Assembly (NCBI GenBank): GCA_023251395.1
Contig: JAHEYW010000006.1
Location: forward strand, 1 to 34,002
From: Bacteroidales bacterium
GTDB taxonomy: Bacteria > Bacteroidota > Bacteroidia > Bacteroidales > VadinHA17
DNA: 34,002 bases
Reading direction: 5' to 3'
A model generated the notes under the pieces. It made no database searches. It was given only the letters and a program-made list of their open reading frames with translations, and was not told the DNA's origin. Shown piece by piece: positions 29,215 to 34,002 of this stretch (the stretch's first letter is position 1; each line of letters opens with the position of its first letter). Position numbers and translations under genes: made by a program.

Positions 29215-30303
29215 ATGAAGAACAGGATAAATGTAAAACTAACCCTTGAGGACGGGACCATATATACAGGAAAATCGTTCGGGGCAAATATACCTGCTGC
29301 AGGAGAAGTAGTATTCAATACTGCAATGACGGGTTATCCGGAAAGTCTTACAGATCCATCCTACAGGGGCCAGATTTTGTGCCTTACATACCCGCTGATA
29401 GGTAATTATGGAGCGCCTGGAAAAGAAGAGGCTGATGATATATTGAAGTATCATGAGTCTTCATCAATTCATATTTCAGCATTAATAGTATCTGATTATT
29501 CTTTTGATTACAGCCACTGGAATGCAACCGAAAGCCTCGAAGAGTGGCTTATAAAAAATAATGTGCCAGGAGTCTATGGAATAGATACAAGAGCCCTAAC
29601 CAAAAGAATAAGGGAAAAAGGAGCCATGCTGGGCAAAATTGAACCAGATGGTTCATCAATTGATTTCTACGATCCGAATAAAGTCAACCTGGTGGCAGAA
29701 GTAAGTACAACTACAAAGAAAATATATGGTTCAGGTTCAAACAGGATCATCCTTGTAGATTGCGGAGTAAAATACAATATCATTAGGAATCTCCTTAAAA
29801 GGGACACAACAATAATTCGGGTACCCTGGAATTATGATTTCCATAAAGAGGAGTTTGACGGATTGTTCCTTTCAAACGGACCGGGTGACCCCAAAATGTG
29901 TGACATCACTATCAGCAATATAAAGAAATCGCTTGAAGGGAATAAACCTGTATTTGGCATATGTCTTGGCAATCAGCTGATGGCTCTCGCCTCAGGAGCC
30001 GATACATATAAGCTTAAATATGGTCACAGGAGCCATAATCAGCCTGTTATTCAGGTAGGGACTGACAAGGCATATATTACTTCTCAGAACCATGGCTTTG
30101 CTGTGAATAACAAAACTCTTGGAAGGGACTGGCTTCCTTATTTTATAAATATTAACGATAACACAAATGAGGGAATGATACACCGGAGAAAGCCGTTCTT
30201 TTCTACCCAGTTCCATCCCGAGGCTTCAGGTGGACCAACAGATACCGATTTTCTGTTCGATACCTTTATTGAAAATATTGCAAGGTATAAGGGTATTAAT
30301 TGA
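29215..30303 (+). CDS. carA: Carbamoyl-phosphate synthase small subunit
   Basis: CarA is the glutamine amidotransferase subunit that feeds ammonia to CarB for carbamoyl phosphate, a precursor of arginine and pyrimidines. The N-terminal CPSase domain (about 1-150) is followed by a class I GATase domain with nucleophile C250 in FGICLGNQ (248-254), plus H334 and E336 in FHPEA. Asn253 replaces the usual His of GICLGHQ next to the nucleophile; the catalytic triad itself is intact. The 362-residue length is normal. carA shares a transcript with the PatB-type gene; its partner carB lies 3.4 kb away beyond the argRGH operon. Confidence 0.95.
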   Translation: MKNRINVKLTLEDGTIYTGKSFGANIPAAGEVVFNTAMTGYPESLTDPSYRGQILCLTYPLIGNYGAPGKEEADDILKYHESSSIHISALIVSDYSFDYSHWNATESLEEWLIKNNVPGVYGIDTRALTKRIREKGAMLGKIEPDGSSIDFYDPNKVNLVAEVSTTTKKIYGSGSNRIILVDCGVKYNIIRNLLKRDTTIIRVPWNYDFHKEEFDGLFLSNGPGDPKMCDITISNIKKSLEGNKPVFGICLGNQLMALASGADTYKLKYGHRSHNQPVIQVGTDKAYITSQNHGFAVNNKTLGRDWLPYFININDNTNEGMIHRRKPFFSTQFHPEASGGPTDTDFLFDTFIENIARYKGIN

Positions 30304-30326
30304 GCTTATAATAATAACGTGTTAAC

Positions 30327-30398
30327 CACGGAGTTACACAGATGTAAATGAGAAGTTGAGGTTGTTTCAACAGCCTCAACTCCGTTCAAAACTCCGTG
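30327..30398. terminator. Nested inverted repeat between convergent carA and argH
   Basis: An outer inverted repeat CACGGAGTT/AACTCCGTG (30327-30335/30390-30398) encloses an inner hairpin GTTGAGG/CCTCAAC (30355-30361/30374-30380) that tightens through GTTG/CAAC to a TTT loop. It lies between two converging genes and may end both transcripts, but there is no T-run, so it could equally be a dispersed repeat. Confidence 0.5.
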
Positions 30399-30424
30399 CC
30401 ACCCCTTGGTAAAACAATCTTTAC

Positions 30425-31771
30425 TTATTTATCCAATTTATAATTCACCAGCTTTGACTCAAGTTCAGAAGATGTTTTACTGTTGAAGCTTTTCATATGC
30501 GTTTCAGCCATCTTTTGAATCTGATCATTACATAGATTACCAATACTTCCTTCATGAGAATAATCTTTTGTAGATGTTCTGGAAAATGAACCATTTTCTA
30601 ACCTGGCTCCAACTTCTTTATAAGCGTCCCTGAAAGGAACTCCCGACCTTACAAGCCTGTTCACCTCTTCCGTGCTGAATATTGAATTATAAACCGGGTA
30701 TTCTGTAATATCTTTTCTGATCCTGATCCCGGTCAGCATGAAATTAAGTATATCAATGCAAGCTTCAAGTTCTTTAAAGGCATCAAATACAAGTGGCTTA
30801 AGAAGCTGAAGATCCCTGTGATAGCCCGATGAAAGATTGGATGTCAGCATAGCAATTTCCGCCGGTACAGCCTGCAGATGGTTTGTACGTGCCCTGATTA
30901 TCTCAAAAACATCAGGATTCTTTTTCTGGGGCATGATACTTGACCCGGTAATGTATTCCCCCGGAAAATCAATAAACTTGAATTCAGCACCCATATAAAG
31001 ACAAATATCCATTGAAAATCTTCCCAGGGTTCTGGCAACTGAAGCAAGTGCACCAGCAACTGCCATTTCAACCTTACCCCTGTTCAGGCTGGCATAGGCT
31101 GAATTAAAAACGAGATCATCAAATTCAAGCAGGTCTGCGGTGAGCTTCCTTTTTAATGGTAATGTCGTACCATATCCTGCAGCAGTACCCAACGGATTGC
31201 GGTTATTCAGTTTTCTTGCTGAGGCCAGCAGATGAAGGTCGTCAGCAAGGCTTTCGGAATAGGCTCCAAACCATAATCCGAATGATGAAACCATTGCCGG
31301 CTGCATATGTGTATATCCCGGAAGCAGAACCTCCTTATGCTGCTCACTCAGAGACTGAAGCTTATTGAAAAGGGCAAAAACCTTGACTGCTATCCTGTCG
31401 ATCTCTGATCTGGTAAATAACCTGATATCAAGCAGAACCTGGTCATTTCTTGATCTGCCGGTATGGATCTTTTTACCTGTTGGTCCCAGATTAACTGATA
31501 AATCCTTCTCAACCTGAGAATGGATATCTTCAACCCCTTTCTCTACAATAAGTTCCCCTTTTGTAGCTTTCTGAAAAAGAAGATGAAGGCCATTTAAAAG
31601 ACTTTGCTTTTCTTCAGGTGTCAAAAGGCCAACATTTTGGAGCATTATTGCATGTGCCATTGAACCGATAATATCCCATTCGGCCAGCGAAAGATCCATT
31701 ACCCTGTCATTGCCTACGGTAAATTCAATTATTGCCGGATCAGGTTCTACGCCTTTATCCCATAGTTTCAT
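30425..31771 (-). CDS. argH: Argininosuccinate lyase
   Basis: It cleaves argininosuccinate to arginine and fumarate, the last step of arginine synthesis. HTGRSRNDQV (103-112) and the signature GSSIMPQKKNPD (276-287), with the catalytic serine loop, are intact; the catalytic His region is GYTHMQPA (152-159). The 448-residue length is normal. It lies 70 bases downstream of argG on the same strand and probably belongs to the argR-argG-argH transcript. A hairpin (31822-31845) overlaps the argG stop codon. Confidence 0.97.
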   Translation of the reverse strand: MKLWDKGVEPDPAIIEFTVGNDRVMDLSLAEWDIIGSMAHAIMLQNVGLLTPEEKQSLLNGLHLLFQKATKGELIVEKGVEDIHSQVEKDLSVNLGPTGKKIHTGRSRNDQVLLDIRLFTRSEIDRIAVKVFALFNKLQSLSEQHKEVLLPGYTHMQPAMVSSFGLWFGAYSESLADDLHLLASARKLNNRNPLGTAAGYGTTLPLKRKLTADLLEFDDLVFNSAYASLNRGKVEMAVAGALASVARTLGRFSMDICLYMGAEFKFIDFPGEYITGSSIMPQKKNPDVFEIIRARTNHLQAVPAEIAMLTSNLSSGYHRDLQLLKPLVFDAFKELEACIDILNFMLTGIRIRKDITEYPVYNSIFSTEEVNRLVRSGVPFRDAYKEVGARLENGSFSRTSTKDYSHEGSIGNLCNDQIQKMAETHMKSFNSKTSSELESKLVNYKLDK

Positions 31772-31821
31772 AAGATGCAGAATTTAGTTTAACAGCTGTA
31801 AAGATTTCAATAAACTATAGA

Positions 31822-31845
31822 GTAAGTGAAGTAACTTCTTCTTAC
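31822..31845 (-). other. Small hairpin at the argG stop, upstream of argH
   Basis: GTAAG (31822-31826) pairs with CTTAC (31841-31845) and GAAG (31828-31831) pairs with CTTC (31835-31838) around a TAA loop. It overlaps the argG stop codon on the minus strand and lacks a T-run, so it is more likely a processing or attenuation structure than a terminator, if it is functional at all. Confidence 0.35.
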
Positions 31846-33086
31846 CCCAGGGTGCTTTTCTTACGTCCCGATTCAACTATTGCTCTGTGAGCCATCAGTC
31901 GGATAGCATTTATTTTTATGAACCCTTTGCTGTCAGTTTGATCAAAGCCTCCTTCAATATCCATACTTGACAGGTTTTTGTTATATAATGAGGATGGGGA
32001 TTCTCTTCCTTCAATTATAATATTGCCCTTATACAGACAAAGGTGAACACTACCGTCAATCAGCTCCTGGCTTTTATCTACAGCGGCCATCAGAAAGTCC
32101 ATTTCAGGGCTGAACCAGAATCCGTTATAAATAAGCTCCGAGAATTTTGGTGTAAGCATATTTCTCAGTCTCATTACCTCCCTGTCCATGGCAATGCCTT
32201 CGATATCTCTGTGGGCTGCATAAAGTATTGTAGCTCCGGGGGTTTCATATACTCCTCGTGATTTGATACCAACGAACCTGTTTTCAACCATATCCAGAAG
32301 ACCGATGCCATTCTTACCTGCAATTTCATTCAGGTAAACGAACATTTCGTAGGATTCAGTTTTTTCAGTTCCGTCATCCTTATTCAGAACTTTAACTGGT
32401 AAACCATCTTTGAAGTCAATTACTATCCTTGTTTCGACATCAGGTGCATCCTGTGGCATAACCATCTTCTGGAGCATGCTTTTATGCAGAGTATACATAG
32501 GATCTTCAAGTACCCCGGCCTCATGACTGATGTGCATAAGATTATCATCCTCACTGTAAGGTTTTGCAATACTTGCCTTAACCGGAATGTTTTTCTCAGC
32601 CGCATATTTCAAAAGATCGGTTCTGCCTTTGAAAGTTGCCAGGAACTCTCTGTCTTTCCAGGGTGCAATAACCTTTACTCCTGGCATCAATGCATAATAT
32701 GAAAGTTCAAAACGGACCTGGTCATTTCCTTTACCGGTAGCACCATGTGCGACAGCTTTAGCCCCTTCAGCTTTTGCGATCTCAATCTGTTTCAGAGCTA
32801 TAAGTGGCCTTGCCAGTGAGGTGCCCAGAAGGTACCTGTCCTCATAAATTGCATTTGCTTTTACTGCCTTTAGAACGTAACCATCAATAAATTCCTTCTT
32901 CAGGTCGCTGACAATCACTTTCGAAGCACCAAGAAGAAGAGCTTTTTTACGACATTCCTCAAAATCTTCCGCCTGACCAACATCCGCAACAAATGCAATA
33001 ATTTCATAACCTTTTTCAATAAGCCACTTCAGAATAACAGAAGTATCCAGACCGCCACTATAGGCCAAAACCACTTTTTCTTTCAT
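31842..33086 (-). CDS. argG: Argininosuccinate synthase
   Basis: It condenses citrulline and aspartate with ATP to argininosuccinate. The N-terminal ATP-binding loop [12 protein letters not shown] (8-19) is the family signature; [14 protein letters not shown] (about 113-126) is the second conserved segment. The length of 414 residues is typical. It starts 32 bases after the argR stop on the same strand, and no -7 element was seen in that gap, so it is probably read from the argR promoter and repressed with it. Confidence 0.97.
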
Positions 33087-33118
33087 TGTATTATTATTAA
33101 TAATTGTTAGTGTGTATT

Positions 33119-33598
33119 TTATTCTTTTTTAACCACGTCCCTGAATCCCGGGAATATCATCTCGAGGCATGAATGAACCTGAGAGGCTGTAATATTGTCC
33201 CTTGGAATTATCATTACCGTATCATCACCTGCAATAGTCCCGGCTATTTCAAAGCGGCCGGCATTATCAATAATAAAAGCAGTACTGCTTGCGTGACCGG
33301 GAATTGTCTTAAGCAGAACCAACCCTCTTGCATTTACTACGGATCTGATCACTGAGATAATATTTTTATTCAGTCCGCTTCCCCCAATCTGCTTTGATGA
33401 ATCAGAAAGTGAATATTTGTAACCACCACTATCTGAAGGAATTCTTATTACACCCAGCTGATGAAGGTTACGCGAAAGGGTAGCCTGAGTGCAGGTAATT
33501 CCAGATTTTTTAAGCCTTTTAAGCAACTCTTCCTGGGAAGAAATATTTTCCTCCGATATGATCTTTTCGATCTCAAGAAGCCTTGCTACCTTTTGCAT
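33119..33598 (-). CDS. argR: Arginine repressor ArgR
   Basis: ArgR is a hexameric, arginine-responsive regulator. The track opens at a TTG (33619) that lies inside the promoter element, so ATG 33598 ([13 protein letters not shown]) is preferred, giving 159 residues. The N-terminal winged helix contains the SR pair (42-43) in [12 protein letters not shown]. The C-terminal domain has the trimer/arginine segments [11 protein letters not shown] (101-111) and GTIAGDDT (120-127). Two ARG-box-like sites overlap its own start and -7 element, pointing to autorepression of argR-argG-argH. The divergent carB promoter begins about 40 bases beyond the boxes and may also respond. Confidence 0.95.
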
Positions 33599-33609
33599 AT
33601 TTATACATT
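33592..33609 (-). promoter_or_regulatory. ARG box 1 (ArgR operator)
   Basis: On the minus strand AATGTATAAATATGCAAA agrees with 16 of 18 positions of the E. coli ARG-box consensus wnTGAATwwwwATTCAnw. It overlaps the argR start codon. Its partner begins exactly 21 bases away. Confidence 0.75.
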
Positions 33610-33612
33610 TTC

Positions 33613-33630
33613 GATGCAAATTTATACATT
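33613..33630 (-). promoter_or_regulatory. ARG box 2 (ArgR operator)
   Basis: On the minus strand AATGTATAAATTTGCATC agrees with 14 of 18 ARG-box positions. It contains the argR -7 element, so ArgR bound here would block RNA polymerase. The centre-to-centre distance of 21 bp to box 1 is the usual ARG-box pair spacing. Confidence 0.7.
33617..33624 (-). promoter_or_regulatory. -7 promoter element TAAATTTG for argR
   Basis: On the minus strand TAAATTTG matches TAnnTTTG exactly and lies 18 bases before the argR ATG. It sits wholly inside ARG box 2. Confidence 0.6.
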
Positions 33631-33665
33631 TTTTGAATATTCCAAGGCTCTTTTAAAAATAATTG

Positions 33666-33673
33666 TATTTTTG
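33666..33673 (+). promoter_or_regulatory. -7 promoter element TATTTTTG for carB
   Basis: TATTTTTG matches TAnnTTTG exactly and ends 17 bases before the carB ATG. The ARG boxes lie about 36-74 bases upstream of it on the same DNA, so ArgR could influence carB as well. Confidence 0.6.
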
Positions 33674-33690
33674 TGACTCAAAATCCGGCA

Positions 33691-34002
33691 ATGAAAGATG
33701 AATTAAAAAAGGTAATAATCCTTGGTTCCGGGGCACTTAAGATCGGGGAAGCGGGTGAATTTGATTATTCCGGTTCACAGGCACTGAAGGCTCTTAAGGA
33801 GGAAGGAATAGAGACAATTCTGATAAATCCTAATATAGCAACAGTACAGACCTCGGAGAATATTGCCGATAAAATTTACTTTCTTCCGGTCAATCCATAT
33901 TTCGTAGAAAAAGTAATAGCAAAGGAGCGTCCCGGTGGAGTTCTGCTTTCTTTCGGAGGGCAGACAGCTCTCAACTGCGGAACAGAACTATACAAAACCG
34001 GC
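33691..34002 (+). CDS. carB: Carbamoyl-phosphate synthase large subunit (N-terminal 104 residues, cut by window)
   Basis: This gene is absent from the ORF track because it runs off the right edge. By hand translation it begins [24 protein letters not shown] and continues through [18 protein letters not shown] and [13 protein letters not shown]. This matches the first pre-ATP-grasp domain of CarB, with [17 protein letters not shown] in place of the E. coli GAGPIVIGQACEFDYSG. CarB uses ammonia from CarA, bicarbonate and two ATP to make carbamoyl phosphate. The ATG follows a -7 element by 17 bases. It is divergent from argR and separated from carA by the argRGH operon. Confidence 0.93.

Follow-up and report, generated by a model that had tools for sequence, protein, structure and literature searches.

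Near the end of the window, by which we mean the whole stretch of 34,002 nucleotides that was analysed, an arginine repressor gene lies on the minus strand ahead of two arginine biosynthesis genes and faces a divergent carB gene. The features of the locus, with two putative ARG boxes in the intergenic region, are the following.

30425–31771, minus strand: argH, argininosuccinate lyase; open reading frame 70 bp after argG, in conserved gene order
31842–33086, minus strand: argG, argininosuccinate synthase; open reading frame 32 bp after argR, named from its sequence
33119–33598, minus strand: argR, arginine repressor, with domains PF01316 and PF02863
33592–33609, minus strand: ARG box B, TTTGCATATTTATACATT on the forward and AATGTATAAATATGCAAA on the minus strand, covering the argR start codon; 16 of 18 matches
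33613–33630, minus strand: ARG box A, GATGCAAATTTATACATT on the forward and AATGTATAAATTTGCATC on the minus strand, covering the argR −7 element; 14 of 18 matches
33617–33624, minus strand: argR −7 element TAAATTTG, read from the sequence, within box A
33643–33646, minus strand: likely argR −33 element CTTG, 18 nt upstream of the −7 element; TTG stands at 18–19 nt in most of 30 loci
33666–33673, plus strand: likely carB −7 element TATTTTTG, read from the sequence; most relatives keep its complement, CAAAAATA
33691–34002, plus strand: start of carB (ATG, MKDELKK...), PF25596, cut by the window end; the start is conserved in relatives

The product of argR is a full-length repressor in which both the N-terminal DNA-binding domain (PF01316, Arg_repressor, 75.4 bits) and the C-terminal arginine-binding domain (PF02863, Arg_repressor_C, 64.5 bits) score above the cut-off. 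It contains a GTIAGDDT stretch, nearly invariant among relatives, which we take to be typical of the arginine-binding domain of ArgR. The short gaps between argR, argG and argH (32 and 70 bp) and the lack of any terminator-like site over positions 30300–34002 fit an argR-argG-argH operon, and argG directly follows argR in every locus of the genus that was checked. The carA and carB genes share a strand and are split by these three genes of the opposite strand (window positions 29215–34002).

The boxes were scored against the 18 positions of the classical ARG box WNTGAATWWWWATTCANW. Box A is the one farther from argR, while box B is nearer and has the argR ATG inside it (CAT at 33596–33598, minus strand); their centres are 21 bp apart, which leaves 3 bp between the two 18-bp boxes, and the whole operator reads AATGTATAAATTTGCATCGAAAATGTATAAATATGCAAA on the minus strand. 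The initial annotation had reported two such sites, with 16 and 14 matches and this spacing, and was exact to the base; it was equally right in placing the −7 element inside one of them and the start codon inside the other. The −7 element TAAATTTG itself fits the Bacteroides consensus TAnnTTTG (PMC7366714). Imperfect 18-bp palindromes, a gap of about 3 bp, overlap with a promoter through its predicted −7 element and conservation among ArgR-bearing relatives are all found here, so that, as far as sequence can tell, every testable feature of an ARG box is present at the argR pair.

Statistics on this sequence alone provide modest evidence, suggestive and not decisive. The window holds one pair, whereas 60 dinucleotide shuffles gave 0.05 on average, and 0.11% of the local AT-rich shuffles contained a pair (local p ~0.001); the degenerate paired pattern, with zero mismatches allowed, has one match in the whole 3.2-Mb genome. 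It is the comparison among relatives that is decisive for the pair. Both boxes occur at the same place in all of 29 further argR upstream regions, whose ArgR proteins are 54–66% identical, and the motif derived from the argR loci of the genus is ATGHATAWATWTGCA. When 36 genomes of the genus were searched with up to 3 mismatches, the pair was found in 34, every match being at argR and always with the 21-bp spacing, and the reversed pattern used as a control gave 0 matches in the same 36 genomes. In the two genomes without a pair, the argR match reaches a contig end (G019) or argR was not found (G030). One genome carries an identical operator sequence at two contig ends (G002:C22:39-73 and G002:C367:21-55), probably a single locus split by assembly.

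An AT-rich repeat of this kind could be nothing other than promoter and start-codon sequence (TAnnTTTG, ATGCAA) resembling ARG boxes by accident, as both boxes do overlap such elements and single matches to the motif also occur at other promoters. At the −7 element, 29 of the 30 loci have either TATATTTG or TAAATTTG, and the remaining one has TATCTTTG. Independent evidence for an operator comes only from the left halves of the boxes and the CA of box A, the right part of box A and the right half of box B doubling as promoter and coding sequence. In these core columns, where no letter is dictated by the −7 element or by the coding sequence, identity is 96–100%, versus 75% for the other intergenic columns: TG.AT in the non-coding left half of box B is invariant in the genus, and in box A TG.A and the CA after TTTG, outside the −7 element, are 96–100% conserved. 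Exact pairing at 21 bp is moreover unique to argR, and in sister families box B lies just ahead of the argR start codon and wholly outside it, which makes the start codon inside the box a feature of this genus. Accidental resemblance is accordingly very improbable.

The operators of E. coli consist of two 18-bp boxes 3 bp apart that bind one hexamer and overlap promoter elements (PMC6640053, PMC6245113), and the argR site resembles them in its two imperfect palindromes, their gap and their position over promoter elements. By this likeness, the most probable action of ArgR is to keep polymerase off the argR promoter. What is observed is two conserved sites, exactly spaced, that overlap the promoter and the start codon. 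On these grounds we believe with high confidence that the pair would bind a single ArgR hexamer as one operator, with arginine-bound ArgR repressing argR-argG-argH by promoter occlusion. When arginine is plentiful, the arginine-bound hexamer would occupy both boxes and cover the −7 element together with the beginning of the transcribed region at the argR promoter; RNA polymerase would then be kept away and the three genes repressed, so that both the end product and ArgR would exert negative feedback. The scheme presumes that ArgR binds here, that it needs arginine to do so, that its effect is repression rather than activation and that the three genes are co-transcribed.

The same hexamer might also govern the divergent carB promoter, a possibility raised by the initial annotation together with the autorepression of argR-argG-argH. 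The start of carB, first read as GTG at 33673, has been corrected to ATG at 33691, the start that relatives conserve. The carB gene is divergent from and close to argR in most loci of the genus, the distance from box A to the carB −7 element is almost constant (mostly 35–37 nt), and the carAB operon of E. coli is under ArgR control (PMC6245113). A near-constant distance, however, is to be expected wherever two divergent promoters share the space, and the boxes of the window sit upstream of the carB core promoter and not over it. The boxes are also retained without an adjacent carB, in 4 loci of the start-codon type and in 18 others, counts that mix two collections sharing some genomes and are not independent; none of 9 carB genes relocated to a distance of about 2.6 kb has a box ahead of it. 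The boxes thus neither depend on carB nor follow it, and we rejected co-control by ArgR: a shared operator seems improbable and these comparisons lend no support to joint control of carB, which ArgR might still affect indirectly in the genus. The predicted autorepression, on the other hand, is strongly supported by the conservation of the pair in the genus and in most sister families.

A look for the motif before other arginine genes, suggested by the initial annotation, was mostly negative. No ARG box was found at carA in the window, nor near the ornithine carbamoyltransferase gene, with about 1.5 kb covered on each side; this gene adjoins a carbamate kinase gene in the genome of the window. 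A second paired operator was not found elsewhere, and no target was found among the arginine-catabolism genes. Neither argC nor argB was found above the curated cut-off in the 36 genomes of the genus (G000–G035), the weak matches resembling aspartate-semialdehyde dehydrogenase, carbamate kinase and proB. The genes argG, argH and argR and that for ornithine carbamoyltransferase are present in genomes of the genus although argC and argB are not recognised. Taken together, the missing argC and argB, the boxless ornithine carbamoyltransferase and carA genes and the lack of a second pair indicate that ArgR may here regulate little beyond a single operon.

A wider regulon in the genus, acting through single or weaker boxes and including proline genes that possibly supply ornithine, is another possibility, and we consider it rather doubtful. 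It would agree with the lack of recognisable argC and argB and with a single box that stands in the same place, about 92 bp upstream of proB, and is strong (22.0–24.8 bits) in three genomes (loci L175, L176 and L178) and weaker in two more (L177 and L186); proC, named from sequence, also stands behind argG in two sister families. The proB boxes are confined to a subclade, however, with no such box before proB in the genome of the window, and the other single matches lie mostly inside genes or before unrelated genes. Single matches do outnumber those of the reversed control pattern, but we did not accept this excess as a regulon, given that the control has different dinucleotides and that the motif overlaps the −7 consensus. 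The strongest single site elsewhere in the genome of the window (G000:C239:8892-8905, locus L007), which contains a −7-like TAAATTTG and lies just before a probable gamma-glutamyltransferase gene, was likewise set aside as probably a promoter match.

Outside the genus, an ArgR domain match was present in 17 of 296 genomes of a class-wide sample, mostly within the same order, Bacteroidales. Most sister families of this order retain pairs at 21 bp; a few relatives have 22 bp, and in some sister families the boxes are 41–42 bp apart with a weaker middle box over the −7 element. Beyond the main group, pairs are weak or missing at some ArgR loci, and one genome (G053) has a pair away from argR, upstream of unrelated genes. 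In place of argG-argH, several sister families carry behind argR an acetyltransferase-like gene and an argG of different appearance (names from sequence; loci L222, L223 and L224), and it is behind this argG that proC is found in the two families mentioned above (L222 and L223). The persistence of the pairs before differing downstream genes shows that the putative operator outlasts a change of its target genes. It is conceivable, at somewhat less than even chances in our judgement, that ArgR of this genus has been reduced to an almost dedicated switch, which has a single paired operator in each genome and acts on its own operon only, the recognisable upper arginine pathway having been lost, with the same operator kept across the order before differing sets of arginine genes, and proBA possibly gained in one subclade.

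Unlike in E. coli, where the half-sites are TGAAT/ATTCA, those of the present operator are TGNAT/TGCA; the promoter is of the Bacteroidetes −33/−7 type, the start codon lies inside box B, and carA of the window is boxless. The nearest solved structure to the ArgR of the window is AhrC of B. subtilis (1f9n), with 5cj9 and 1b4a also close. A TQAT(V/L)SR stretch is common to this protein and to AhrC and other ArgR/AhrC repressors, whose regulons appear to be much larger than the one seen here. Makarova and colleagues reportedly described in 2001 one conserved type of ARG box across bacteria, and the argR site fits that type.

Our literature search on ArgR in Bacteroidetes, incomplete in its coverage, returned nothing relevant, in agreement with the earlier remark that ArgR operators are little described in this phylum. 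An autoregulatory ArgR operator, as this putative one would be, is ordinary biology of a known kind in a little-studied group. What is gained for Bacteroidales is a well-supported candidate motif for ArgR operators, TGHATAWATWTGCA, which occurs as a pair at 21 bp covering the −7 element. The searched literature holds no description of such an operator for this order, and the motif is directly usable for mapping ArgR regulons there. The locus would also provide a case of a repressor–operator pair outliving the replacement of the genes under its control.
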